From Planctomyces sp. (lineage in GTDB: Bacteria > Planctomycetota > Planctomycetia > Planctomycetales > Planctomycetaceae): a DNA stretch of 37,503 nucleotides. The notes under the pieces were generated by a model, which made no database searches, was not told the DNA's origin, and saw only the letters and a program-made list of their open reading frames with translations. The translations under genes and the position numbers were made by a program. The stretch is from contig SXXK01000157.1 in NCBI GenBank assembly GCA_005791255.1, forward strand, positions 1 through 37,503, in the 5' to 3' direction. Numbering within the stretch: position 1 is the first letter of the stretch; every line of letters begins with the position of its first letter. This document shows positions 13,175-35,943 of the stretch, piece by piece.

Positions 13175-13396
13175 GGCGGGGCTCACAGGAAACAGGCGGG
13201 AGGCACAGGAAGTGAGACTGTAGGGAAAACGGCGGTGCGAGTCGAATCAGCGGGATGCCGCATTTCTTCGCACCAGCGGCAAATCCGGCCCGCTTGACGC
13301 AGGATCCGCCCCAAAAATCGGTCCACCTCAATCCCCGGCTACCCCTGACAACCTCGCGGCGATATCATCCGGGCTCAGGCAGTCATTGCCTGCCAT

Positions 13397-13483
13397 GGCC
13401 AGGTGGCGAAATTGGCAGACGCACGGGACTTAAAATCCCGGGTCCCGTAATGGGACGTACGGGTTCGACCCCCGTCCTGGCTA
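13397..13483 (+). tRNA. tRNA-Leu (anticodon UAA)
   Basis: A complete 87-base cloverleaf can be folded. The acceptor stem GGCCAGG / CCTGGCT has a G1-U72 wobble pair and discriminator A73. The anticodon stem CGGGA / TCCCG encloses CTTAAAA, with anticodon TAA at 13431-13433. A long variable arm (GGTCCCGTAATGGGACGT) marks a class II tRNA, and the T arm is ACGGGTTCGACCCCCGT. The 3' CCA is not encoded. It reads UUA (and by wobble UUG), the kind of codon whose wobble uridine is modified by the Mnm pathway. Confidence 0.95.
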
Positions 13484-13548
13484 GTAAAAAACCTGTTACG
13501 ACAAACCGCGAACTCTTTGGCCGGACAGATCACAGTCTGAAGCCCCAG

Positions 13549-14516: not shown

Positions 14517-17500
14517 TCAGTCCACAAACAGGAACTCGTTCGAACACACCAGCACCTGCGCCAACTGCTCAAGCGGAGTCAAAGCGGGGTTCGGCGGAAT
14601 CGGAAAATCAAGTTCCGAATGCCACGCCGTCGCCGACTCACCAGCACCCTCCTCCAGCAATTCCACTCGCCACAAATACTGGTCGCTGTTCAGCTGTTCG
14701 CCGATGTCCACAACGAAGTCCAGAGTTTCTCCAGCCTCCACGACAACTCCCTGCAACTCACCACTGGCCCGCTGATGATGCAATTTCTGAGCCTGCAGCA
14801 GGCCCTGACGCGAACTGACAACAAAGGCCCTGATCCCGTCGCCCACCTCCGGCTCATGCACCAGCTGCAGCTTCAATGTCAGCCGCAGTTTTCGCGGAGC
14901 CGTCCAGCGTCGCACCGCCGCATGCTGCCGATCGTTCCCCGGATGGCCGCCCTGAGCCGTCAGCTGCACCCAGCCCAGCTGTCCGTCCGGATGCACTGCT
15001 CCACCCTGCCACGCCGTCCCCGTAAAATGCGGCAGCGGCTGAAAACCCATCACTCGACCAGCCGACTCATCCACCGCCCCATAACCATAACTCCAGTCGC
15101 CAGCCGTCGGTCGCTGTTCCGGCTGCTCCGGCACTTCCGCACCCAGCAGCCCGACCGCCTCCGACAATTCCGCAGCCGTCGGCTCACGCTGCAACACCTC
15201 GCGAAACAGCAGCCTGACCTGCTGCTCCAGCTCACCAGACTCCCCTGCCCTGCGAGCCAGCAGCCGCACCTGCTCAAGTACCAGCGGATGATTCATCAGA
15301 AACAAAGCCTGCTGCGGTACCGTGGTCTCACTGCGCTGCGGAATGTGCAGGTCGGGATTGGCAAAATCGAACATCCGCAGAGTGCCCGGCAGAAACTGAC
15401 GGTCCACCAGCCCATACAGCGTTCTTCGTCGCGGATAGGGCGGCTGAAACAAATCCTGCGGACGACCGCCAACAGCACGCTCCAGACCGCCGGACACCGA
15501 CAGCAGCGAATCCCGCAACTCTTCAAACGACAGCCGATGCAGGTTCATCCGCCACAACAGCACGTTCCCCGGATCCACCGCCATCGCTCGCTGCTGCTGC
15601 TCAGCTGACAGCTCGGCCGAACTCTGACGAAATGTCGCCGACAGCAAAATCATTCGATGCAGACTGCGCAGACTCCAGCCACTCTCAATAAACCGAGTGG
15701 TCAGCCAGTCCAGCAGCTCCGGATGCGAAGGACGCTCAGCCCGCAGACCAAAATCACCTACCGACGACGCCAGCCCGCGACCAAAGTGCCACGCCCAGAC
15801 TCGATTCACCATCACTCGAGCTGTCAGCGGATTCGTACGATCAATAATTCGCTCCGCCAGTTCCAGCCGACCACTGCCTTTGGTAAACGGACGACGTTCA
15901 GCACCACTCAGCAGGCCGGGGAACTGCCTCGGTACATCCGCTCCCTGCTGAGCCGGATTGCCACGCGCAAAAATTCGCGGTTCCACCGGCTGCGCCCGAT
16001 CCCGCAGCACCACGGCAAACCGCGGCTGCGATGGCGCATTCAGAATCAAACGGTCCAGTTCAACCTGCGCCTTCCACAGTTCATTGCACACACCCGAATC
16101 AAAATCATACTCGGTGCTGCTTATCGGTTCGTCCGGCACAAAACACGGCTGACCGGGTCCGTACAGCACCAGCCGCAGAGCCTCAGCATCCGCGTCGGGC
16201 AGTCCCTGCGGAGCTGCCGTGCCGGCCTGCGCTGCCCGCTGCAGCACCGACTGCCACTCGGTATCCACCGCCCGAAACAGCCGAGCATAGCCGGTGATCA
16301 CGTCGTCAAAATTCGCCGGTGGCTCCGTGAATGCTGCTGCCAGCCGCGCATTCGTCAGACGACCACCATCCCGCAGCTCACGCAACACGGCCGCCGATCG
16401 CTCGGCATACTGCTGCGGCGGCAGATTCCGATACGCATGCCAGACCACAAACAGCGCGTCACCCCGCTGCTCCGCCAGTCGCAAATAATCCCGCCAGCGA
16501 TGCACAAACGACGGCAGCAGATCCGTCGCTGCAATAATCTGATCAAATCCGGCTTCCGGATAACGACCCGGATCCAGCTGAGCCCGCAGGTAGTCCTCCA
16601 CACGGTCACGCACTCGAGCTGCAGTGGTGGCCCGCCGCTCCTGCCGCAGCTTTTCACCCGCCGCCGCTCGTTCCTGATACGCTCGCTGAAACTCGGCCCC
16701 CGCACCGTCCGCAGACGCGCCGCCCATCGGCAGCTCTGCCAGAAACTCACGCGAACTGTCAAATACTCCGTACAGCGAATAATAATCGGCTGTCGGAATC
16801 GGATCATACTTGTGATCGTGGCAACGAGCACACCCCACCGTCAGCGCCATCGTACCCCGACACACCACGTCAATCTGGTCGTCAATAATGTCCCGCCGCA
16901 CACCCAGAAACCTTCGCCCCAGCGTCAGGAAGCCCATGGCCGCCAAATCTTCGTCCGTTCGATCAGGCACCTGATCGGCAGCAATCTGCAGCAGCAGAAA
17001 CCGGTCGTAAGGCATGTCTGCGTTCAGTGCAGAAACCACCCAGTCACGGTAATTCCAGGCATGCACCCAAAATCGCTCCTCCCGACCATACACATACCCC
17101 TTGGTGTCGGAATAACGAGCGATATCCAGCCAGTGACGAGCCCAGTGCTGGCCGTATTCCGGCGCATGCAGCAGTCGTTCCACCAGCTGCTCATACGCCT
17201 GCGGATGCGGATCAGCAACAAAGGCTTCCACCTCGGCGGCCGCAGGCGGCAGTCCGGTCATCGTGAAATATGCGCGACGAATCAGCGTACGACGATCTGC
17301 CTCCGGCGACATCTGCAGACCCCGACGCTGCAGGCCCTGCATAATAAATGCGTCCACAGGAGTCCGTATCAGGGTGGTATCCGTCTGAGGAACCGGAGGA
17401 TCCGCCACCGGCTGAAAGGCCCAGTGAGCCGCTGCGGCATCCGGCCCCACCGACTGCAGCATCCCGGTCCGCGCCGGCCACGGCAAACCCAGCCGGACCC

Positions 17501-17843
17501 ACTGCGTCAGAGCCTCACGCTGCGGCACACCAAGAGGCTGCTCAGGAGGCATCTGCAGGTCACCAGCATAACTCACTGCCTGCACCAGCAGACTGCCGGC
17601 CGCATCACCCGACACGGCAGCCGGACCTGAATCACCACCCCGCAAAATCGCTTCCCGCGAATCCAGCCGCAATCCACCCGACTGTTTCTTTGCCCCGTGA
17701 CACCCCACACACTTCTCGGCCAGCAGCGGACGTATCTCACGCTCAAAAAACTGCTCCGACTCGTCCGCTTCAGACAGCGGATGAAACAACAGCACACTGC
17801 AGCAGACCGCCAGCAACTGCAAGACGACAGCGGACGAAAACAT
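14517..17843 (-). CDS. Secreted planctomycete cytochrome / DUF1549 / DUF1553 protein (copy 1)
   Basis: This very large exported protein (1108 residues) belongs to a family that is highly expanded in Planctomycetota and has unknown function. After a signal peptide (AVVLQLLAVCCSVLLF) comes a planctomycete-type cytochrome C domain with CVGCH (Cys45, Cys48, His49). The DUF1549 region follows, with HWARHWLDIARYSDTKGYVY and a second CARCHDHKYDP motif. The C-terminal DUF1553 region contains NRVWAWHFGRGLASS and HPELLDWL and ends in CSNEFLFVD. ATG 17843 is chosen because AAAGGA sits about eight bases upstream; ATG 17852 overlaps that site. It follows the PQQ-like gene closely and precedes the amidohydrolase. 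Confidence 0.9.
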   Translation of the reverse strand: MFSSAVVLQLLAVCCSVLLFHPLSEADESEQFFEREIRPLLAEKCVGCHGAKKQSGGLRLDSREAILRGGDSGPAAVSGDAAGSLLVQAVSYAGDLQMPPEQPLGVPQREALTQWVRLGLPWPARTGMLQSVGPDAAAAHWAFQPVADPPVPQTDTTLIRTPVDAFIMQGLQRRGLQMSPEADRRTLIRRAYFTMTGLPPAAAEVEAFVADPHPQAYEQLVERLLHAPEYGQHWARHWLDIARYSDTKGYVYGREERFWVHAWNYRDWVVSALNADMPYDRFLLLQIAADQVPDRTDEDLAAMGFLTLGRRFLGVRRDIIDDQIDVVCRGTMALTVGCARCHDHKYDPIPTADYYSLYGVFDSSREFLAELPMGGASADGAGAEFQRAYQERAAAGEKLRQERRATTAARVRDRVEDYLRAQLDPGRYPEAGFDQIIAATDLLPSFVHRWRDYLRLAEQRGDALFVVWHAYRNLPPQQYAERSAAVLRELRDGGRLTNARLAAAFTEPPANFDDVITGYARLFRAVDTEWQSVLQRAAQAGTAAPQGLPDADAEALRLVLYGPGQPCFVPDEPISSTEYDFDSGVCNELWKAQVELDRLILNAPSQPRFAVVLRDRAQPVEPRIFARGNPAQQGADVPRQFPGLLSGAERRPFTKGSGRLELAERIIDRTNPLTARVMVNRVWAWHFGRGLASSVGDFGLRAERPSHPELLDWLTTRFIESGWSLRSLHRMILLSATFRQSSAELSAEQQQRAMAVDPGNVLLWRMNLHRLSFEELRDSLLSVSGGLERAVGGRPQDLFQPPYPRRRTLYGLVDRQFLPGTLRMFDFANPDLHIPQRSETTVPQQALFLMNHPLVLEQVRLLARRAGESGELEQQVRLLFREVLQREPTAAELSEAVGLLGAEVPEQPEQRPTAGDWSYGYGAVDESAGRVMGFQPLPHFTGTAWQGGAVHPDGQLGWVQLTAQGGHPGNDRQHAAVRRWTAPRKLRLTLKLQLVHEPEVGDGIRAFVVSSRQGLLQAQKLHHQRASGELQGVVVEAGETLDFVVDIGEQLNSDQYLWRVELLEEGAGESATAWHSELDFPIPPNPALTPLEQLAQVLVCSNEFLFVD

Positions 17844-17884
17844 CACGGTCATCCTTTGAAAAATCTGCCGACTGTTTCCCGGGA

Positions 17885-19186
17885 TCAACCCCCCGCCGAC
17901 TGCTGCGCATCGCCTATCAGATACAGGTGCGATTCCGTCCGCAGCAGAATCCTGCCATCGATAAACACCGGAGTCGCTGTGGTGTGCTCGTCCGCAATAC
18001 TGTTCTCGGACAGCAGCTGAAATTTGTCGCCACCTGCATTCACCACAAAGACTGTGCCGTCCTGGCGAGTCAGATAGACGCGGCCATCAGCCACCACCGG
18101 CGATGCTCGGAACGTATGCCGATTCTTCGGCAGCTGACCCGACCAGATCGTTCGACCTGTCTGCAGATCCAGACAATCCACCACACCCCGGGCATCACCG
18201 TTGTCACGGCAGATGTAAACGCGACCGGCGGCGATCGCCGGAGTCGGTACGTCGGCCGCTGTGCCTGTGTTCGCCCACAGCTGATGCGTTTTCGTCACAT
18301 CACCGCTGCCACCCATGCGCACCGCCGTCAGGGAATCACCGCGAGCATAGGGGGCCACCACAATGCCCTCCGCAACAGCCGCCGATGCAATCGAACGGAA
18401 ATACTTGTGACCCGTGGGATTCAAACCACCCAGACGCCACAGCTCGGCACCGTCGGCAGCCGCATGAGCCGTCACATGGTCGGCCCCCAGCACCACGATC
18501 TGCTGCTGATCACCCTCACCCACAACCACCGGTGTTGCGTAGCTTTGGGCTGCTTCTTCAGGAGCACCCAGTTCGCGATCCTGCTTCCACAGCAGCTTGC
18601 CCGAACCTTTTTCAAATGCCGCCAGATACGACGGACCGGAATGCATGCAGGCCACCACCACCGCATTGTCCGTCAGCACCGGGGATGTCCCCAGATCCCA
18701 CCACAACGTGTCCTGCCCGTACATCTTCTGCAGATTGTGCTGCCACTGCAGCTGACCTTCGACAGTGAAACAGGCCAGATCACCGCTTTTGAAATACACA
18801 AACACATACCGACCATCCGTAGTCGGCGACGGATTGGCTCCCGTGCCGTCCTTGCCAGGTTTGCCCTCCACGGATGTCCCCAGCACACGCTCCCACCGCA
18901 GACTGCCAGCGCGGCTGGAACACTGCACCACGTTGGAACTGTCGCGAGTCCCCGTGAGGAAGATGCGGTCGTCGATGACGGCCGGAGTCGACGCGCCGCG
19001 GATCGTGAGCGGCGTCTTCCAAAGCACTCCGCTGTCTGCCGACCACTGCTGCAAATAACCCGAGCCCTCAGCCTGACCACTGCCACCGGGACCACGCCAC
19101 GACGGCCAGTCCCCCGCAGTCACAGCATCACATGCTGACAACCCAAAACTGAACAGCACAGCAGAGACAACGGATGACATTCGCAT
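17885..19186 (-). CDS. PQQ-like beta-propeller protein, exported
   Basis: This 433-residue protein is built from repeated blades of the quinoprotein/BamB type, for example TPAVIDDRIFLTG, SPTTDGRYVFVYF, TPAIAAGRVYICRDNGD and SPVVADGRVYLTRQDG. The opening GDWPSWRGPGGSG is the usual N-terminal signature of secreted planctomycete propellers. The N terminus is a signal peptide that could be processed as a lipoprotein (FGLSAC) or cut after AVTA. It probably works as a scaffold or binding protein outside the cytoplasm; no catalytic cofactor site can be confirmed. Its stop is 41 bases before the DUF1553 start, consistent with cotranscription. Confidence 0.85.
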   Translation of the reverse strand: MRMSSVVSAVLFSFGLSACDAVTAGDWPSWRGPGGSGQAEGSGYLQQWSADSGVLWKTPLTIRGASTPAVIDDRIFLTGTRDSSNVVQCSSRAGSLRWERVLGTSVEGKPGKDGTGANPSPTTDGRYVFVYFKSGDLACFTVEGQLQWQHNLQKMYGQDTLWWDLGTSPVLTDNAVVVACMHSGPSYLAAFEKGSGKLLWKQDRELGAPEEAAQSYATPVVVGEGDQQQIVVLGADHVTAHAAADGAELWRLGGLNPTGHKYFRSIASAAVAEGIVVAPYARGDSLTAVRMGGSGDVTKTHQLWANTGTAADVPTPAIAAGRVYICRDNGDARGVVDCLDLQTGRTIWSGQLPKNRHTFRASPVVADGRVYLTRQDGTVFVVNAGGDKFQLLSENSIADEHTTATPVFIDGRILLRTESHLYLIGDAQQSAGG

Positions 19187-24398: not shown

Positions 24399-26072
24399 CT
24401 ACCCTCCGACTGTCGAACGCTTCCGATAAACAAACAACACCGGTGCGGTCGCATTGCCGGTACCCGTTTCGATCACATCCACCTGACACTGCTGCTGCTG
24501 CTGAGAATCCAGCAGCACTGCCGCATACTCCTCCATGCCGCCGGCATGACCCCGATAACACAACACCGTCATGACCCCGCCTTCACGCAACAACAGCCTG
24601 GCAGAGGAAATTGCCCGCACCGTGGTGTCAGCCCGAGTCACCAGCGAATGGTTTCCACCCGGCAAATACCCCAGATTAAACATCACCGCACCAAACTGAC
24701 CAGCCCGGCCCAAACCTTCCGGTCGCACCAGTCGCTCCAGCTCAGTGGCATGGTCAGCACGCACCAATCCTACACCTGTGATCCCGTGTTGTGCCAGCAA
24801 AGCAGCCGTCTTCTCAATGGCCGCCGGCTGAACATCCACCGCCAAAACCCGCTCCGCCGCAAAGGTTTTGGCCAAAAACAGAGTGTCCTGACCGTTTCCC
24901 GCCGTGGCATCCAGCAGCCAGTCACCCGCTTTGACAGCACGCCGCACAATCGTCTGAGCCTTCTCAGTCAGATCACTGCGACGACGCCCCGACTGTTCCG
25001 TCGACATGCCCGTTACCCGATCTGCAGCAAACCGCTGCAACAAATCCACCGCTGCAGCCGGAGCCGCCAGTGTCCCATGCGACCCCAAACCATTCAAAAT
25101 ACCAATTCTTTTGTAGATTCTGTGATGTTCAGCGAGCACCTGGCGACGGCGAGTCCCGGCACGCACGCCCGCTCGATGACTCGCCACCGCCTGCACACCA
25201 CCCGCCCAGCCCCCCATCAACAGCAACCGCTCCGCACTCGCCCGCAGCTCCCGCAAGCCAGCCTCGGTCGTGCCGTCCCAGCCTTCATACCCCAAATTCA
25301 CCCGCTCCCGATCATAGGTCGCACCCACCAGAAAACGATCCCCCGTCCCCTCCACCGGGACCAGCCAATGCTGATCCACAACACCGGCCCACCCCGACAC
25401 ACACGCACTCGAATCCCGCAAATCATTCACAACCACTTCCAGCACCTCACCACGCAGCGGATGATCAGGTACGCCCGAATACCAGGGATTGGCCTGCACA
25501 CAACCCGAGGCTCCCAGACACAAGTACAAGCGATCCCCCGACAACCCAAAACGCGGTACGCTGACGCCGTCAGGTCCGGGAACAACGTCTGCAGCGATTT
25601 CCAGGTCAGCAGCCAAAAATTGGCCCCGATTTTGAAAAAACTGACGCGTTTGTTCCAGATACGCGGCCACATTCAATTTCCAGGCCGACATCACAAAACC
25701 CGTTTCCCGCCCATCCGGTTCATACTGCAGCTGCACCGCATCCCGCACCGATTCGTATCGCTGATGCAAAAACCACCGCCGCTCCGCATCCCCCTGAAAA
25801 CGTCGCAGAATTTTAATTTCACTAAACAAACGATCAGTTTTTAGTTCCTGCGCAGCTCGCTCATAAAATCGCTGGGCCTGTGTCAGTCGTTCCTGCCAGC
25901 GGTCAGGAGTCGTGAATTTTTGTCCGGAGACTGGCATGACCAGTCCGGCTGCGACCTGAGACGCTGCGGGGCGACCTGGCGAACCGATGAGGCAGACCTG
26001 ATCACCCTGCCAGTGACAGGCCCATGCCAGTGCGGACCCGGCCAATCCCTGGCCCACAATGAGCGTTCGCAT
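24399..26072 (-). CDS. Fused FAD-dependent oxidase (MnmC-oxidase-like) and MnmM/YtqB-type tRNA methyltransferase
   Basis: This 557-residue protein has two parts. Residues 1-350 are a DAO-type FAD oxidoreductase: dinucleotide motif IVGQGLAGSALAW, then ASQVAAGLVMPVSGQKF, FLVGATYDRE, SHRAGVRAGTRRR and LNGLGSHGTLAAPAAA. The last blocks run parallel to the oxidase half of E. coli MnmC. Residues 365-557 are an MnmM (YtqB) methyltransferase: LLDATAGNGQDTLFLAK, VLAVDVQPAAIEKT, MFNLGYLPGG and CYRGHAGGMEE. MnmM is known to methylate nm5s2U34 in tRNA, and MnmC's oxidase half converts cmnm5 to nm5. I infer a single enzyme making mnm5(s2)U34. The N-terminal specificity is less certain than the methyltransferase family. 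First gene of a four-gene operon. Confidence 0.8.
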   Translation of the reverse strand: MRTLIVGQGLAGSALAWACHWQGDQVCLIGSPGRPAASQVAAGLVMPVSGQKFTTPDRWQERLTQAQRFYERAAQELKTDRLFSEIKILRRFQGDAERRWFLHQRYESVRDAVQLQYEPDGRETGFVMSAWKLNVAAYLEQTRQFFQNRGQFLAADLEIAADVVPGPDGVSVPRFGLSGDRLYLCLGASGCVQANPWYSGVPDHPLRGEVLEVVVNDLRDSSACVSGWAGVVDQHWLVPVEGTGDRFLVGATYDRERVNLGYEGWDGTTEAGLRELRASAERLLLMGGWAGGVQAVASHRAGVRAGTRRRQVLAEHHRIYKRIGILNGLGSHGTLAAPAAAVDLLQRFAADRVTGMSTEQSGRRRSDLTEKAQTIVRRAVKAGDWLLDATAGNGQDTLFLAKTFAAERVLAVDVQPAAIEKTAALLAQHGITGVGLVRADHATELERLVRPEGLGRAGQFGAVMFNLGYLPGGNHSLVTRADTTVRAISSARLLLREGGVMTVLCYRGHAGGMEEYAAVLLDSQQQQQCQVDVIETGTGNATAPVLFVYRKRSTVGG

Positions 26073-26202
26073 GATTTACTGTTTTCCCCTGAATTGCCGA
26101 TACTTTCCATATATTGTCAATTTGCTTCAGTTTCCGGAACGTTTATCCTCTGAAATCTGCGTCAGTTTCTTCGATTGCTTTTTCACTCCAAAGGATCCCG
26201 CC
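26073..26202. promoter_or_regulatory. Divergent promoter region with AT-rich core
   Basis: This 130-base gap separates the divergent oxidase-methyltransferase gene (minus) and the Tat oxidoreductase gene (plus), so it must hold both promoters. An AT-rich stretch CCATATATTGTCAATTTG lies in its first third, and on the minus strand it includes a TTGACA hexamer. No convincing matching -10 box was found at standard spacing. AAAGGA at 26189-26194 is the ribosome site of the plus-strand gene. Confidence 0.4.
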
Positions 26203-27525
26203 ATGACGTTGCGTCAATCAACCGCACGCCGTTCATTCCTGCAGACTGCAGGTTCCACAGCTCTGCTGATTCCCGGTCTTTACGCATCAGCCAGTCCTGC
26301 TCGCCCGTCCCGCAGTGCTCTGGAAAACCTGAACATAGCCTGCATCGGCACGGCCAATCGAGCAGCCGAAGACGTCAGCGGAGTGATGAGCGAGAACATC
26401 GTCGCGATTGTCGACATCGACTCGAACTACCTCGACCGCTGCAAGGCGATGCTGACGGAAAAGAAAAAACTGACACCTCGCACCTATGCTGACTACCGCG
26501 AGATGCTGACAGCGGAAAATGACCGGATTGACGCTGTTGTGATCGGCACGGCCGACCATCATCATGCTCCGGCTGCCATCCGGGCGATTCGGGCCGGCAA
26601 GCACGTCTACTGTGAAAAGCCGCTGACTCACACCGTCTTCGAATCCCGCCTGCTGGCGAAAGCCGCTGCCGAAAAAGGCGTGGCAACTCAGCTGGGAACT
26701 CAGATCCACGCGGAAAACAACTACCGCCGCGTCGTCGAAGTCATCCGCTCGGGAGCCATCGGCAATGTGACGGAAGTGCACGTTTGGGTCGGCAAGGGCT
26801 GGGGTGGCGGCGAACGACCTGCCAAGGGCGACCCGGTGCCCGCAACCCTGAACTGGGATCTGTGGCTGGGACCGGCTCCTGAACGTCCTTACGCCAATGG
26901 AGCCTACCATCCGGCCAACTGGCGACGCTGGTGGGACTTCGGCGGTGGCACAATTGCCGACATGGCCTGCCACTACATGGACCTGCCATTCTGGGCACTT
27001 GACCTGCGACATCCCACGAAGATCTCCGCAGAAGGTCCAAAAGTGCATCCGGAAACCTGCCCGCTGGGTCTGATCGTCCGCTACGACTTCCCGGCTCGCG
27101 GCACCATGCCGGCACTGAAGCTGACCTGGTACGACGGCGACATGATCCCCAAAAAGATCGCCGATCAGCCGGTCCCGGCCAACGGTGTCATGTTCGTAGG
27201 TACCGACGGGATGATGTTCGCCGACTACAGTCGCTATCGACTGTTCCCGACCGACAAGTTCGCCGGCTTCAAACCACCGGCTGAAAGCATCCCGAACTCC
27301 ATCGGACACCATGCCGAGTGGATCAAGGCCTGCAAGGATGGTTCACCCACAACCTGCAACTTCAACTACTCTGGCGCACTGACCGAAACCGTGCTGCTGG
27401 GAACAGTGGCCTACCGTCTTGGTAAGTCACTGGACTGGGATGCGGCCAACCTGACCGCTACCAATGCTCCGGAAGCTGCCGGGCTGATCAACAAGGAATA
27501 TCGCAAAGGCTGGGAAGTTGTCTGA
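26203..27525 (+). CDS. Tat-exported Gfo/Idh/MocA family oxidoreductase
   Basis: This 440-residue NAD(P)-dependent oxidoreductase family protein is probably periplasmic. The N terminus RQSTARRSFLQTAGSTALLI is a twin-arginine signal. The Rossmann fold LNIACIGTANRAAEDVSG follows, then AVVIGTADHHHAPAAIRAIRAG and KHVYCEKPLTHT (active-site Lys). The C-terminal domain has GWGGGERP, WDLWLGPAPERPY and YHPANWRRWWDFGGGTIADMACHYMD, typical of the group very abundant in planctomycetes. ATG 26203 is chosen because AAAGGA lies eight bases upstream; the open frame begins earlier but encodes no family sequence. A strong terminator follows. The substrate is unknown. Confidence 0.92.
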   Translation: MTLRQSTARRSFLQTAGSTALLIPGLYASASPARPSRSALENLNIACIGTANRAAEDVSGVMSENIVAIVDIDSNYLDRCKAMLTEKKKLTPRTYADYREMLTAENDRIDAVVIGTADHHHAPAAIRAIRAGKHVYCEKPLTHTVFESRLLAKAAAEKGVATQLGTQIHAENNYRRVVEVIRSGAIGNVTEVHVWVGKGWGGGERPAKGDPVPATLNWDLWLGPAPERPYANGAYHPANWRRWWDFGGGTIADMACHYMDLPFWALDLRHPTKISAEGPKVHPETCPLGLIVRYDFPARGTMPALKLTWYDGDMIPKKIADQPVPANGVMFVGTDGMMFADYSRYRLFPTDKFAGFKPPAESIPNSIGHHAEWIKACKDGSPTTCNFNYSGALTETVLLGTVAYRLGKSLDWDAANLTATNAPEAAGLINKEYRKGWEVV

Positions 27526-27555
27526 TTGACATTCCGACCCTCTGTGATCAGAAAC

Positions 27556-27596
27556 AAAAACCTCCAGCGACCGAATTTGGTTGCTGGAGGTTTTTT
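27556..27596 (+). terminator. Strong rho-independent terminator
   Basis: AACCTCCAGC(G)ACC pairs with GGT(T)GCTGGAGGTT around a GAATTT loop and is followed by a T-run. An A-run precedes the stem, so the hairpin could also stop transcription from the opposite side. It lies 30 bases after the Tat oxidoreductase stop and shields the spacer to its right from read-through. Confidence 0.9.
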
Positions 27597-27600
27597 GTTG

Positions 27601-27905
27601 TTCCGGCCTTCGCTGTTCAAATTTAAAAATCAAATGTTTTGCAGCAGTCTGTAGTAATATGGGCCGGTCAAAACTGTTGATAACTGCCCTCGAAAAAGTG
27701 GTAAGTCATTGAAATGAAACACTTTGTGGAAACAGAACTTGTGTTGAAAACTCGTTGTGAAGTGTGGTGAATCCGGTGCTGTCTGCGGTGACAAATCAGC
27801 CCGGTTGTGCACCGCCGTCGCGACCTCAGGGCAGTCCTGTGGACAAACCACAAAAGTTCACAGAACATTCTCCGGAAGTTCTCAACACCTTTTCCACCAT
27901 GACTT
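27601..27905. other. Putative chromosomal replication origin (oriC)
   Basis: This gene-free spacer marks the point where + strand composition changes from mostly C-rich (left) to mostly G-rich (right), the direction expected at an origin. Candidate DnaA boxes, compared with TTATCCACA, are: 27675-27683 (TTATCAACA on the minus strand, one mismatch), 27838-27846 (TTGTCCACA on minus, one mismatch), and weaker two-mismatch sites at 27725-27733, 27742-27750, 27879-27887 and 27890-27898. An AT-rich stretch at 27617-27640 (AATTTAAAAATCAAATG core) could be the unwinding element. dnaA is not in the window, which does not exclude an origin. The call is inferred from composition and motif clustering, not from a database. 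Confidence 0.65.
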
Positions 27906-27909
27906 CCCA

Positions 27910-28992
27910 CTACTGCCCTTCGTACTCGGTCTGAATCGCTGTGGTGGGCAGATTTTTCTTCAGTTCTGCCAGGGCAGGTTCAGAGGCAGCCAGTGCTGTT
28001 CTGGTGATTTTCAGGTCTTTCAGCGACTTCAGGTGAAACAACGCCGGGGCTCCGGCGTCGGTGATCTGAGTGGATCCCAGGTGCAGAAAAGTCAGCTGAG
28101 TCATGGCTTTCAGCGTGGGCAGCCCGGCATCGGACAGTTTGGTGTTGTCCAGATTCAGCCACTGCAGACCGGTCAGCGGAGCCAGTGCCAGGGCCCCGGT
28201 GTCGGAAATCTGTACACGCCACAGATTCAGTTTTTTCAGCGATGTGATTGCCGCCAGTGATTCCATGCCGGTATCGGTGATGACTGAGTTTTCGCTGAGA
28301 TCCAGTTCTTCAAGGGTGCGACAGTCTTTCAGGGCCGCCAGTGCGGCGTCACCGACGGACGTGCGGGACAGTCGCAGTTTTTTGAGCTGGGGAAATTTCG
28401 CGATCAGAGCCACTGTGTCGTCATCAACAAGGGTTTCAGCAAGGTACAGCTCTTCCAGCCCGGCCAGTCCGGTGAGCTGTTCAATGCCCGGTTTGCCAAT
28501 CCACAGGTTATCCACTGCGAGCACTTTCAGGGATTTCAGAGCCGTCAGCGGCTTCATGCCGTCATCGGCAACCGTGGTTTTGCCGTTTTTGCCTGAAAGT
28601 CGCAGTACCTTCAGACCAGTCAGTCGTCCCACCTCGTTCATGGACGCATCAGACAGGGCACAGCCGCGGAGATCGAGACTGGTGATCTGCGGTGCGGCCT
28701 TGATCAGTTCTGCCAGCATGGCGTCATCCAGCGCGGTATCAGCGAGGTTGACGGACTGCAGTGTTTTGCAGGCTGCCAGCTTTGTCAGCGAGTCGGCACT
28801 GAGCTGTGCTTTGCGCAGATCGACGCTGGCAGCCCGGCCTCCTGCGTCCGATACGATCACGGATCCAGCATCAGTCAGTGATTTGATGGCGGCTGTTTCC
28901 TCAGGAGTGGCCCTGGGAATTTCCGGAACGGCATTTCCAGTGCAGCCATAGAGGGGACACAGCAGGAACAGCAGCAGACAAACGCGTTTCAC
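27910..28992 (-). CDS. Leucine-rich-repeat lipoprotein
   Basis: This 360-residue exported lipoprotein has the signal KRVCLLLFLLCPLYGC, with the lipid-attached Cys17. The rest is a run of about ten leucine-rich repeats of roughly 24 residues (for example LKKLRLSRTSVGDAAL, LEELDLSENSVITDTGM, LQWLNLDNTKLSDAGL, LTFLHLGSTQITDAGA), which form a curved protein-binding surface. GTG 28992 is chosen because GGGAG lies eight bases upstream; ATG 29022, which overlaps the stop of the DUF1553 gene, would add ten residues. The tight link to that gene suggests the two exported proteins work together. The binding partner is unknown. Confidence 0.85.
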   Translation of the reverse strand: MKRVCLLLFLLCPLYGCTGNAVPEIPRATPEETAAIKSLTDAGSVIVSDAGGRAASVDLRKAQLSADSLTKLAACKTLQSVNLADTALDDAMLAELIKAAPQITSLDLRGCALSDASMNEVGRLTGLKVLRLSGKNGKTTVADDGMKPLTALKSLKVLAVDNLWIGKPGIEQLTGLAGLEELYLAETLVDDDTVALIAKFPQLKKLRLSRTSVGDAALAALKDCRTLEELDLSENSVITDTGMESLAAITSLKKLNLWRVQISDTGALALAPLTGLQWLNLDNTKLSDAGLPTLKAMTQLTFLHLGSTQITDAGAPALFHLKSLKDLKITRTALAASEPALAELKKNLPTTAIQTEYEGQ

Positions 28993-29018
28993 CAGTTCAG
29001 CTCCCGGGAGTAAAAACA

Positions 29019-32009
29019 TCATTCCACAAACACGAATTCATTCAGATTCAGCAGCAGTCGGCACAGCGCCGGCCAGCCGTGTGCAGCGGCATACTGCAGC
29101 ATATCAGCGGCTTCTTCAGGCTCCGGATCCCGCCCGGTGACAAGCTGAAAAGCCAGCTCTATTCGCTGCTGATCTGCAGCGAATTCCCGCTGGATGCGTT
29201 CCGCAAATCGCTGTGACATCACCAGATTGAATTTGTTGTTCAGCAGCGACAGAGCCTGCAGCGGAGTCAGTGTTTCATGGCGTCGGGGTGTGCTTTGCGA
29301 CGAATCCGCGCAGTCCAGTGTGGTCATGAACGGATCGGGTTGTGATCGCACGATGAAGCGATACACGCTGCGGCGATGTGACTGCGGATCCGCGGGGTCA
29401 AATTTGTGGTATTCGTAGTGCGGAGAATGGTCGGTTTTTTCCAGAGCAAACAGGTAGAATCCCGGCCCGCCCATCTTCATATCCAGGGCTCCGCTGACCA
29501 TCAGCACGGCGTCGCGTAATTCTTCAGCAGTCAGGCGACGACGGTTCATTCGCCACAGCAGATGATTCTCTGCGTCCACGGTCAGAGCATCCTCGCGCTG
29601 TTCAGCGGACTGCTGCCAGGTACTGCTGAGCAGCAGCAGGCGGTGCATCGATTTGAGTGACTGACCGTCCTGCAAAAAGCGACCGGCCAGCCAGTCCAGC
29701 AGTTCGGGATGAGTGGGCGTCTGTCCCATACGACCGAAGTCATTTGGTGAATCCACCAGGCCTCTGCCGAAGTGATACTGCCAGACACGATTGACCAGAG
29801 ATCGCCAGGTCAGTGGATTTTCTGCACGCACAATCCACCGTGCCAAAGCGGCTCGCCGCTCACCTTCAGTGTGATTCGGCGGCAGTTGAAAGCGAAATTC
29901 GTCACCGGCGGACAATGGTATGGTACCCGGTTCCGCAGGTTCCCGTGGCTGAGTTTCGTTGCCGCGATGAAGCACTCGAATTTCCCGGGGTTTTCCCTGA
30001 GTCGCAATGAAGTTTCCCTGAGTGCTGAAGTGGGTGGCAGCGGCATACACCATGCGGCCGGCCGGCAGCGCGGCCAGCTGACTGTCTGCACTGGTGATTG
30101 CGGCGGTCAGTTCGTCCAGTTTCTGCTGCCGTTCAGTGGTCATTACCGAGGACATCAGTTGTGTGAGTTCCCGGGAAGCGGCGGCCAGCTGCTGTTCAGC
30201 GGCCGGATCAGCAGCAGTCGGCCAGTGACCGTCAACGAGATTGGCCTGGCCCCAGCGGACGGGAGCTTCGATGGAATCCAGGGCCGCAACAGCAGCTCCG
30301 CCGGCAGCATTGCTGCCATCTGCCAGCAGAGCTTCCAGTTCCGCCAGTGCGAAAATGTAATCGGACGAGCGTTTCACCAGTCGAGTGGCAGTCACGCGAA
30401 TCAGCTGCACGGGCTGATTCACGGCAACGCTTACCGGCAGCAGACCGGGATTTGGAAAATCGGTCCGAGTCTGATCGAGTACAGTATTCCAGTTCACAGC
30501 GGTGTTCGGCGGGGGCGACTGCGCCACTTCGACGCGGAACCGGACAGGAAATCCAAAACCAGACCCGATCCCGGCAAATTCATCATGGCAGGGATGCAGA
30601 ACAATCTGCTGTACGGGACGTGGGCTGCCCAGATCAACCTCGACCCATTTGGCGGCGTTTTCGGTGGCTTCAACGGCGCTGTGGTAGCCGAATTCGGGTT
30701 TCTTCGGAGCCACCATGGCTTTGGGCTTCAGTTCAGCCACCCGCTGTTCCAGTTCGACCAGTCGTGATCCGCCGGCCGAGCGAATTTCTGTCTGCAGCTG
30801 ATCACGGTCCTGCTGAGCTTTGGTGCGAGCCATCTGCAGTTGTGTCCGCTGCTGTTCCACCTGCGGGTCAGTGTCCCACGGGCGTTCGGCCCGATCCACT
30901 GCGGCAAACACGGCCTGCAAACCGTAATAATGCTGCTGTGTGAACGGATCAAATTTGTGATTGTGGCAGCGAGCACACTGCACAGTCAGACTGCAGAAGG
31001 CATTCATGGTCCCCACAACCATGTCGTCGCGATCGATATTGCGAGCGACTTTGCCGTCGATCTTCGATTCCGGCACTTCCACGTGACCGATGAAGTCCCA
31101 TGGTCCGGCGGCGATGAAACCGAGACCCAGAATGCCATCCGGAGTACCGGGGAACAGCACATCACCCGCGATTTGTTCCTGCACAAAACGATCCCACGGC
31201 TTATCGGCATTCAGCGAGCTGATGACATAGTCGCGATAGGGCCACGCATTCGGTCGCAGTTTGTCCTTGTCATAGCCGCAGGTGTCGGCATATCGCACGA
31301 CATCCAGCCAGTGTCGCGCCCAGTGCTCTCCGTACTGCGGAGCAGCCAGATATCGATCGACCAGCTTTTCCCAGGCCAGAGGGTCGGGATCACTGACGAA
31401 AGCCTCGACCTCGGCCGGATGTGGCGGCAGTCCCAGCAGGTCGAACGACAGGCGACGAATCAGAGTTCTGCGACTGGCGGGGGGTGCAGGTTCCAGTCCG
31501 GCCTGTCGGAGCCTGTGCAGCACAAACGCATCCACGGGATTGCGAATCCATGCCGTTGCAGCAGCGTCGGAAAACTGCGGCACATGCGGTCTGGCCAGTG
31601 GCTGAAATGACCACCAGTTGAAGTCTGAAACGACAGGTTCCTGCAGCTGTCGATCTGCCGGCCAGACTGCCCCCTGCTGAATCCACTGTCGCAGCAGCTG
31701 TACTTCGGCTTCGGTGAGCGGCGGACCGGAGCCGGGCATTTCCGGTGCCGTGCCGTTCTGTGCTGTGACAACCGTCAGGAGCTGGCTGTCTTCAGGCTGT
31801 CCGGGTACCACATGACCGGACTGCAGCAGAGTCTCAGCGGACTGCAGTGAGAAATCACCGCGACGGTCGACGGAGTTGTGGCAGGACAAGCAGCGTCGCT
31901 CCAGCAGCGGAGCAACCTGCTGTTCAAAGAACTGGTCACCGGCCAGTGCAGCGTCAGAGCTGAGCAGAAGCGGCAAAGCCAGTACCAGCAGCAGTCGTTG
32001 ACAGACCAT
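29019..32009 (-). CDS. Secreted planctomycete cytochrome / DUF1549 / DUF1553 protein with discoidin-like insert (copy 2)
   Basis: This 996-residue exported protein is from the same family as the 14517-17843 product. It has a signal peptide (LLLVLALPLLLSSDAALAG), then a cytochrome-type CLSCH (Cys40, Cys43, His44). DUF1549 follows, with HWARHWLDVVRYADTCGY and a second CARCHNHKFDP. A coiled-coil-like stretch (about 390-440) leads to an insert around residues 460-590 with AAKWVEVDLGSPRPVQQIVLHP, which looks like an F5/8 type C (discoidin) carbohydrate-binding domain. DUF1553 (NRVWQYHFGRGLVDSPNDFG, HPELLDWLAGRF) ends in LNLNEFVFVE. It is likely envelope-located. The LRR lipoprotein gene follows directly. 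Confidence 0.9.
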   Translation of the reverse strand: MVCQRLLLVLALPLLLSSDAALAGDQFFEQQVAPLLERRCLSCHNSVDRRGDFSLQSAETLLQSGHVVPGQPEDSQLLTVVTAQNGTAPEMPGSGPPLTEAEVQLLRQWIQQGAVWPADRQLQEPVVSDFNWWSFQPLARPHVPQFSDAAATAWIRNPVDAFVLHRLRQAGLEPAPPASRRTLIRRLSFDLLGLPPHPAEVEAFVSDPDPLAWEKLVDRYLAAPQYGEHWARHWLDVVRYADTCGYDKDKLRPNAWPYRDYVISSLNADKPWDRFVQEQIAGDVLFPGTPDGILGLGFIAAGPWDFIGHVEVPESKIDGKVARNIDRDDMVVGTMNAFCSLTVQCARCHNHKFDPFTQQHYYGLQAVFAAVDRAERPWDTDPQVEQQRTQLQMARTKAQQDRDQLQTEIRSAGGSRLVELEQRVAELKPKAMVAPKKPEFGYHSAVEATENAAKWVEVDLGSPRPVQQIVLHPCHDEFAGIGSGFGFPVRFRVEVAQSPPPNTAVNWNTVLDQTRTDFPNPGLLPVSVAVNQPVQLIRVTATRLVKRSSDYIFALAELEALLADGSNAAGGAAVAALDSIEAPVRWGQANLVDGHWPTAADPAAEQQLAAASRELTQLMSSVMTTERQQKLDELTAAITSADSQLAALPAGRMVYAAATHFSTQGNFIATQGKPREIRVLHRGNETQPREPAEPGTIPLSAGDEFRFQLPPNHTEGERRAALARWIVRAENPLTWRSLVNRVWQYHFGRGLVDSPNDFGRMGQTPTHPELLDWLAGRFLQDGQSLKSMHRLLLLSSTWQQSAEQREDALTVDAENHLLWRMNRRRLTAEELRDAVLMVSGALDMKMGGPGFYLFALEKTDHSPHYEYHKFDPADPQSHRRSVYRFIVRSQPDPFMTTLDCADSSQSTPRRHETLTPLQALSLLNNKFNLVMSQRFAERIQREFAADQQRIELAFQLVTGRDPEPEEAADMLQYAAAHGWPALCRLLLNLNEFVFVE

Positions 32010-34536: not shown

Positions 34537-35943
34537 ATGCTCAGCCTGCTGCAGCCACCCGTGCGTTTGTGTGACGGCCTGGCTCGTCGACGGCTGCTGC
34601 AGATTGGCGGACTGTCGTCGCTGGGACTGCACCTGCCGGAATTCTGGCGGTTATCCTCGGCGCAGGCAGCCAGCCCTGCCCCGTCCCGCCCGCCGGCAAA
34701 GGCCAAAGCCTGCATCATTCTGTTTCTGATGGGTGGTCCGCCACAGCATTCCACCTTTGACCCGAAACCGCAGGCACCCCGGGAAATCCGTGGCGCCTAC
34801 GGACCCATCGCCACAGCCGTGCCGGGTCTGCAGCTGTGCGAACTGTGGCCTCGTACCGCCCTCGTCGCTGACCGACTGGCGGTGCTGCGTGCAATGTCCA
34901 CAGGCGACAACGCGCATTCATCCAGCGGCTACTACATGATGACCGGTGTCCCGCATGCTCCGATGAATGCGGAAAATGCCAACCCCGGATTCCCCAACGA
35001 TTCCCCGCACATGGGGGCAATCGCCCGCAGTCTGCTGACGTCCCGCGGACAACTGCCCGCGGCAGTTCGCCTGCCGCACCGGATTTTTAATACCGATGGC
35101 AGTGTGTGGCCCGGCCAGGATGCCGGGTATCTGGGCCGCGCGGTGGAACCCTGGCTGCTGAATTGCCAGCCGGCCAGTGCCGCCGCAAAAATCGACGAAT
35201 TTCTGCTCAGCCACGATGTCGACGATCGTCGTCTCAGAGATCGGCGGCAACTGCTGAAACAGCTCGCTCCGGACATTCCCGGACAGCTGGTCATGGAAAA
35301 CTCCGGCTGGGATCAACTGGCTGATCGGGCTTTCGATGTGCTGGGATCTTCTCCGGCGCGGCAGGCCTTCGAGCTGGATCGCGAATCCGCAGAGACTCGC
35401 GATCGTTACGGCCGCAGTCAGTTCGGACAAAGTGTGCTGATGGGCCGGCGGCTGGTGGAAGCCGGTGTTTCACTTGTACAGGTAAACTGGTACCGCGGTG
35501 CCGATGAACCCAGTGATGCACCCTGCTGGGACAGTCACGCCCGCGAAACCCAGCGACTGAAGGATGTTCTCTGCCCGTCCGCCGATCAGGCTCTCGCCGC
35601 TCTGCTGGAAGACCTCAGTGAACGTGGCCTGCTGGATGAGACGCTGGTGGTGGTGATGTCGGAATTCGGTCGAACACCGCGGATGAATGGCGGTGGAGGT
35701 CGGGATCACTGGGGACATGTGTTTTCGGCCGCGCTGGCTGGCGGCGGAATTCAGGGTGGTGCCGTGTACGGCGCCTCCGATGAAATCGGCGGTTTCGCCA
35801 AGGAATACAAAACCAGCCCGCAGGATCTGACGGCGACGATTTTCCACTGTCTGGGTCTGGATCCGCACACAGTCATTCAGGACACTGTTGGCAGGCCGAT
35901 ACCCATCAGCCGCGGCGAAGTGATTCAGGGCATCCTGGCATAA
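34537..35943 (+). CDS. DUF1501 family protein, Tat-exported
   Basis: This 468-residue protein belongs to the DUF1501 family, an alkaline-phosphatase/sulfatase-like fold that is very abundant in Planctomycetota and commonly paired with DUF1549/DUF1553 proteins. ARRRLLQIGGLSSLGLHL is a twin-arginine signal. CIILFLMGGPPQHSTFDPKP (early metal-site region), DNAHSSSGYYMMTG, VSLVQVNWYR, CWDSHARETQRLKD and VVVMSEFGRTPRMNGGGGRDHWG are typical of the family. No DUF1553 gene is next to it; the nearest is 29019-32009 on the other strand. It ends nine bases before the convergent mfd gene. The substrate is unknown. Confidence 0.9.
   Translation: MLSLLQPPVRLCDGLARRRLLQIGGLSSLGLHLPEFWRLSSAQAASPAPSRPPAKAKACIILFLMGGPPQHSTFDPKPQAPREIRGAYGPIATAVPGLQLCELWPRTALVADRLAVLRAMSTGDNAHSSSGYYMMTGVPHAPMNAENANPGFPNDSPHMGAIARSLLTSRGQLPAAVRLPHRIFNTDGSVWPGQDAGYLGRAVEPWLLNCQPASAAAKIDEFLLSHDVDDRRLRDRRQLLKQLAPDIPGQLVMENSGWDQLADRAFDVLGSSPARQAFELDRESAETRDRYGRSQFGQSVLMGRRLVEAGVSLVQVNWYRGADEPSDAPCWDSHARETQRLKDVLCPSADQALAALLEDLSERGLLDETLVVVMSEFGRTPRMNGGGGRDHWGHVFSAALAGGGIQGGAVYGASDEIGGFAKEYKTSPQDLTATIFHCLGLDPHTVIQDTVGRPIPISRGEVIQGILA

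Follow-up and report, generated by a model that had tools for sequence, protein, structure and literature searches.

A probable DnaA-type chromosomal replication origin in a spacer far from dnaA in a planctomycete

A gene-free spacer between two convergent genes is, judging by its sequence, in all probability the chromosomal replication origin (oriC) of the planctomycete that carries it. The spacer very probably represents a DnaA-type oriC at an unusual address and no new kind of system. The window, by which we mean the whole stretch of DNA analysed (37,503 nucleotides of Planctomyces sp., contig SXXK01000157.1), is the entire contig C99 of a 542-contig assembly of 5.58 Mb that is 88% complete. 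We read the spacer as an origin because we observe an enrichment of DnaA boxes, a conserved spacing between them, synteny with relatives, a module that is unique in the assembly and a change in GC skew. Sequence conservation carries, in our reading, most of the weight; the skew evidence is supportive but coarse, and is mixed on longer contigs. The initial annotation had already proposed a replication origin here, and the proposal gains support from the layout conserved at the syntenic spacer, from the single match of a sequence model and from the position of the module in the relative G042.

Architecture of the spacer

The spacer has the highest density of DnaA-box-like 9-mers of any 385 bp in the window (Table 1). 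A scan for DnaA boxes, suggested in the initial annotation, finds seven nine-mers within two mismatches of TTATCCACA; two have one mismatch and five have two, precisely as the annotation's two one-mismatch and several two-mismatch 9-mers had it. Among 2000 dinucleotide shuffles of the spacer the mean is 1.36, and none reaches seven. If the consensus TTATCAACA is used instead, three boxes lie within one mismatch (p 0.0005) and four within two (p 0.10, not significant). Most boxes of the window are degenerate, and only one is an exact match to TTWTCAACA on the expected A position. The spacer thus holds a cluster of boxes in non-coding DNA, as is characteristic of a DnaA-dependent oriC.

Table 1. 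Features of the proposed origin spacer and its surroundings (window coordinates)
Feature	Position	Strand	Remarks
Proposed oriC spacer	27526..27909	.	gene-free, flanked by two convergent genes
Gfo/Idh/MocA-family oxidoreductase neighbour	26059..27525	+	adjoins module in 20/29 pattern loci
Terminator-like intrinsic hairpin	27556..27595	+	3' of oxidoreductase gene, bounds spacer; 18-pair stem
A+T-rich stretch beside trio-like tract	27596..27651	.	putative unwinding region
DnaA-trio-like triplets TAG TAA TAT (three)	27652..27660	+	weak alone; up to 7 in orthologs
Gap between trios and box 1	27661..27674	+	14 bp; 13 bp in 17/27 loci (strict triplet rule)
DnaA box 1, TTATCAACA	27675..27683	-	clade consensus; 1 mismatch to TTATCCACA
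Inverted repeat CGTAA-N19-TTACG, decayed copy	27700..27728	.	7/10 positions; 25 bp from box 1 start
DnaA box 2, TTTTCAACA	27742..27750	-	67 bp from box 1
DnaA-box-like TTGTCCACA	27838..27846	-	9-mer scan
Inverted DnaA-box-like TTCTCAACA	27879..27887	+	204 bp from box 1; 202-216 in orthologs
DnaA-box-like TTTTCCACC	27890..27898	+	11 bp past TTCTCAACA; tandem TTATCAACA here in some orthologs
Leucine-rich-repeat (LRR) protein neighbour	27910..29022	-	adjoins module in 21/29 pattern loci

The AT-rich patch described in the spacer by the initial annotation is confirmed by computed 60-bp minima of 32% GC (from 27693, the second lowest value in the window) and 35% GC (from 27581), and the segment 27596-27665 has 40% GC. 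The same annotation had a terminator bounding the spacer, and a hairpin with 18 pairs does lie there, but the number of such hairpins in the spacer (one) is no better than in shuffles (mean 0.9) and is not significant alone. Rfam returns sub-threshold matches only, all of them at this hairpin. The gene content near the spacer includes LpxK, a UvrD-like helicase, a TRCF-domain (mfd-like) helicase and a tRNA-Leu; the tRNA-Leu (taa) gene is located at 13396-13484 on the + strand.

An excerpt of PMC8287927 gives, for a basal unwinding system (BUS), a DnaA box with at most two mismatches, a gap of at most 16 bp and at least three NAN triplets. The window has one mismatch, a 14 bp gap and three triplets, which is weak by itself, with 51% of shuffled flanks reaching three NAN triplets; TAG TAA TAT with the 14-bp gap is likewise not significant alone. 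Across the related loci, trio-like runs exceed the lengths seen in shuffles, and in an alignment anchored on box 1 triplets such as AGTAGTAGTAATA precede the box in many of them. When triplets are scored strictly, the distance from the end of the best run to the box is 13 bp in 17 of 27 loci and 14 bp in three (the window, G121 and G143). At least three strict triplets are present in 13/27 loci versus 12-18% of shuffled flanks, and at least five in 6/27 versus about 1% of shuffles. The loose NAN rule gives at least three triplets in 19/27 loci, a level reached by 51% of shuffles, and fewer in the other eight.

The motif CGTAA-N19-TTACG is a conserved inverted repeat in many relatives and a putative element of the module. 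At least eight of its ten positions match in 15 of 26 loci versus 3.2% of shuffles, in a test that is not independent, since the motif was derived from the tested loci and 12 starts and loops of 17-22 were allowed. Of those 15 loci, 13 have a loop of N19 and a repeat beginning exactly 25 bp away from where box 1 starts. The two g30 loci match at 6/10 positions.

Conservation of the layout in relatives

The spacer is kept within the genus. Its counterpart in G121 is 68% identical at the DNA level and is flanked by the same two genes (96% identity over 287 residues and 82% over 365); in the nearest relative, G143, contig C368 ends (5213) inside the origin spacer. We aligned 13 loci, the window included, of which 12 have both genes and the remaining one is that of G143; two come from G155. 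Box 1, on the minus strand, is present in 13/13, a second box at 66-67 bp from it in 5/12 full loci, and the inverted box at 202-216 bp in 12/12 full loci. The layout shared between related genera usually runs from a trio-like tract over a gap of 13-14 bp to the box TTWTCAACA, with inverted boxes following after about 204 or 215 bp. The comparison of synteny proposed in the initial annotation therefore finds the box layout kept at one syntenic spacer in several genera.

The pattern TGTTGAWAA-N181-211-TTWTCAACA, which uses the boxes only and takes no gene information into account, was searched in 170 family genomes. It occurs in 29 of them, and a reversed-pattern control in 1/170; the pattern, like the sequence model described below, was designed after orthologs had been seen, and it under-counts, given that the window, G121 and G143 fail its strict form. 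Both neighbour genes lie within 1.5 kb in 18 of the 29 pattern loci, the oxidoreductase only in two and the LRR gene only in three. The pattern locus of G080 has neither neighbour within 1.5 kb, and a trio-like tract and the inverted repeat are recognisable in it by eye. We regard the matches in G038, G076, G014, G148 and G130 as chance: they show no trio-like tract by eye and no adjoining window gene (tblastn E <= 1e-8). Weak DNA matches in G136 (at an LRR-like gene) and in G000 C434 were also rejected as orthologous spacers. In several relatives a back-to-back pair of boxes (TTATCAACA and its reverse, 13 bp apart) is seen at the far end of the origin, as in locus L042 (1716-1737), with similar pairs in L183, L189, L190, L192 and L208; the window has no such pair.

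Among the best 80 of 220 oxidoreductase loci, an inverted TTWTCAACA pair lies downstream in 19, and likewise in G121 with one box changed. In 23 others of these 80 the LRR gene follows at a distance of 11-267 bp, and the gap is devoid of boxes. The gene pair therefore also occurs where there is no origin, and the boxes do not belong to the genes as such.

We derived a sequence model of 105 positions from 24 loci. The genus of the window contributed 12 of these, and the window, G143 and G121 were excluded. In the window's own assembly, 88% complete, the model has one match at E <= 10, namely 27633-27732 (E 3.6e-8). In the family, 42 of 170 genomes match at E <= 0.01, 28 of these at 1e-6 or better and the other 14 weakly. 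The module is thus found as one per chromosome, as expected of a DnaA-dependent oriC: 40/42 genomes have a single match, and G155 and G020 have two. Genomes outside the model also match (G077, G132 and G147, at 5e-10 to 2e-7); in G147 the module is on C98 and the nearest oxidoreductase homolog on C21. The filtered family-wide search missed G121 and G143, which were found at E 2e-4 and 8e-4 in a targeted search of 85 kb. At the class level the model matches 24 of 397 genomes (E <= 1e-4), and a single one of these does not belong to the family (G342:C104:38842-38930, E 4.5e-5). G155 holds two origin modules (C169:4019-4242 and C209:57985-58209), each accompanied by an oxidoreductase and an LRR gene of its own; a duplication, or a mixture of two strains in the bin, may account for the pair.

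Position relative to dnaA and dnaN

Classical dnaA-linked origins adjoin dnaA or dnaN; the spacer adjoins neither. Contigs C441 and C484 of the window's assembly carry dnaA and dnaN, respectively, and the spacer is on C99, apart from both; the initial annotation had placed it far from dnaA. In G042 the module is 110 kb from dnaN and 2.4 Mb from dnaA, and in G071 dnaN lies on the same contig at 220 kb. An origin at dnaA itself was considered for the clade and rejected. C441 has three scattered boxes in its first 20 kb and one in the rest, its skew is of one sign (+0.16 and +0.10), and in G042 the skew difference with dnaA taken as the origin is -0.004 (-0.009 at third positions). A better cluster of boxes elsewhere, which the initial annotation had named as a refutation, was found neither on the dnaA contig nor on 18 other sampled contigs (217 kb of 5.58 Mb).

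The chromosome is rotated to begin with dnaA in at least two species descriptions of planctomycetes (excerpts of PMC10923784 and PMC5177795); the 8.9 Mb genome of Fuerstiella marisgermanici NH11 was adjusted to have dnaA as its first gene (excerpt of PMC5177795).

In genus g39 of the same family, weak matches to the model occur at about 1.3 kb of single-contig records in G126, G157 and G136 (per-genome E from 5e-4 to 0.009), and also in G076 and G038 by targeted search. The match in G136 (L104 1272-1373) falls in the gap between a gene for a 342-aa DnaA-like protein (1-1029) and an ORF with a dnaN domain. Such a short DnaA-like gene of about 342 aa stands at the start of the g39 records L104, L095 and L096, and is 25% identical to the long DnaA of G136. 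A second, longer dnaA is located elsewhere in G136, G038 and G076; G042, G053, G071 and G047 have a single dnaA. The candidate g39 module resembles that of the clade in that AGTAGTAGTAT, a run of trios, stands in G136 together with a box and CGTAAA at the positions expected from the model, but its match is weak in score, its box-like element is TGTGGATTA and its address is the classical one. It is reasonable to infer a relocation within the family, either of the module or of its surrounding genes; the move may have gone in either direction, and the g39 match is weak.

GC skew

In the window the cumulative G-C minimum falls at 27390, and the mean skew of 500-bp segments is -0.163 to the left and +0.006 to the right of 27.7 kb. 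A single breakpoint fits best at 26.5 kb and second best at 27.5 kb; the best fit is reached by 0/1000 block permutations. The change from C-rich to G-rich along the + strand reported in the initial annotation is therefore real as a change, but its right side is neutral, not G-rich, even though all eight hand counts of 60-base lines behind it are exact on recount. The two DUF1553 genes that served it as a control are indeed both minus-strand DUF1549/DUF1553 proteins, but their skews of -0.208 (14517-17888) and +0.015 (29019-32009) are strongly negative versus neutral and not opposite. At fourfold sites, in an analysis whose picked genes conflict with Pfam-supported genes at 24399-26072 and 34537-35943, 12 picked minus-strand genes left of the spacer range from -0.25 to -0.70, and the four genes to its right agreed by picker and ORF list have -0.06, -0.09, -0.09 and -0.41. 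The helicase gene at the right end of the window has a negative skew again (-0.409 at fourfold sites).

Across the spacer the skew rises in 12/12 relatives taken, by only 0.006 in G042. The best breakpoint coincides with the module on four of eight longer contigs of relatives (G081, G101, G080 and G121) and lies away from it on the other four (G071, G047, G092 and G053); its sign is wrong on the last two of these. The genome of G042 is a single contig of 8,920,478 bases with dnaA at its start and the module at 6.481 Mb. Its skew was taken from forty 20-kb samples (800 kb of 8.92 Mb) and locates an origin with a resolution of about 0.2 Mb. In a free two-breakpoint fit the origin falls at 6.52 Mb and the solutions for the terminus at about 1.5-1.7 Mb; at third positions the terminus of the free fit is at about 0.3-0.5 Mb. 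If the terminus is constrained to lie opposite, the best origin moves to 6.32-6.40 Mb (6.24-6.30 Mb at third positions). When the arms are cut at the module, the 20 right samples average +0.0157 and the 20 left samples -0.0075, a difference matched by 0/20000 permutations; the third positions give +0.032 versus -0.009 (p 0.0053).

Discussion

The module has a close parallel in the BUS-type oriC of Bacillus subtilis as described in an excerpt of PMC8287927, with which it shares a box, a gap of 13-14 bp, trios on the expected side, A+T-rich DNA beyond them and further boxes. It differs in that the box of the clade is TTATCAACA and not TTATCCACA, that a second, inverted group of boxes lies about 204 or 215 bp away, that CGTAA-N19-TTACG is present in many relatives and that the module is not beside dnaA. 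In this last respect it is like the oriC of Synechococcus lividus PCC 6715 in DoriC 10.0 (excerpt of PMC6323995), a cluster of boxes away from dnaA and dnaN, though in another phylum and with another box.

If the spacer acts as such an origin, DnaA encoded elsewhere would bind the inverted boxes that delimit a core of about 225 bp (27675-27898) and oligomerise from box 1 onto the trio-like tract to its left. Unwinding would then begin in the A+T-rich stretch at about 27596-27660 and allow loading of the helicase, and initiation would send forks in both directions.

The same boxes might instead titrate or regulate DnaA, or control a neighbouring gene, in the manner of datA or DARS, with the true origin elsewhere. 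Clusters of boxes are known at non-origin sites too, most boxes of the window are degenerate and its skew change is one-sided, all of which would suit such a site. We nevertheless consider this improbable, given that the module is single in 40 of the 42 family genomes that have it, that the window's own assembly contains no other match to the model, that the module of G042 lies near the coarse skew origin and that a trio-like tract at a fixed distance from the box is, in the excerpt of PMC8287927, an unwinding element. It is very improbable that the change in skew marks an inversion or a boundary in gene content and that the boxes lie beside it by coincidence: the skew rises across the orthologous spacer in every one of the 12 relatives taken and the layout is kept between genera, even if the right side is neutral rather than positive and the best breakpoint is off the module on half of the eight longer contigs. 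That an integrated plasmid, or some other extrachromosomal replicon, supplied this origin is barely conceivable next to LpxK, the UvrD-like and TRCF-domain (mfd-like) helicases and tRNA-Leu; in G042 the module sits on a single 8.92 Mb contig, and nothing in the sequences examined speaks for such a replicon. A chromosomal origin is therefore the reading that we retain.

A more tentative proposal concerns the inverted repeat and the history of the locus. CGTAA-N19-TTACG, as found at a fixed 25 bp from the trio-side box in loci of genera g1, g43, g48 and g6, might be the site of a novel planctomycete origin-binding regulator. The ancestor might have had a dnaA-oriC-dnaN cluster from which the origin of the clade split off, dnaN remaining at a distance of about 110-220 kb (in two genomes) and dnaA gone entirely; we regard this combination as possible but doubtful.

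In the literature, by title or abstract start, we found no account of a planctomycete origin away from dnaA; a prior DoriC or Ori-Finder prediction may exist. Estimates of replication rates from metagenomes (peak-to-trough) and studies of strand bias depend on the true origin, and an origin recognisable by its sequence in the Fuerstiella-like clade would provide a locus for both kinds of work. The roles of the boxes, trios and inverted repeat would become directly testable, and the clade could serve as an example of the separation of an origin from dnaA.
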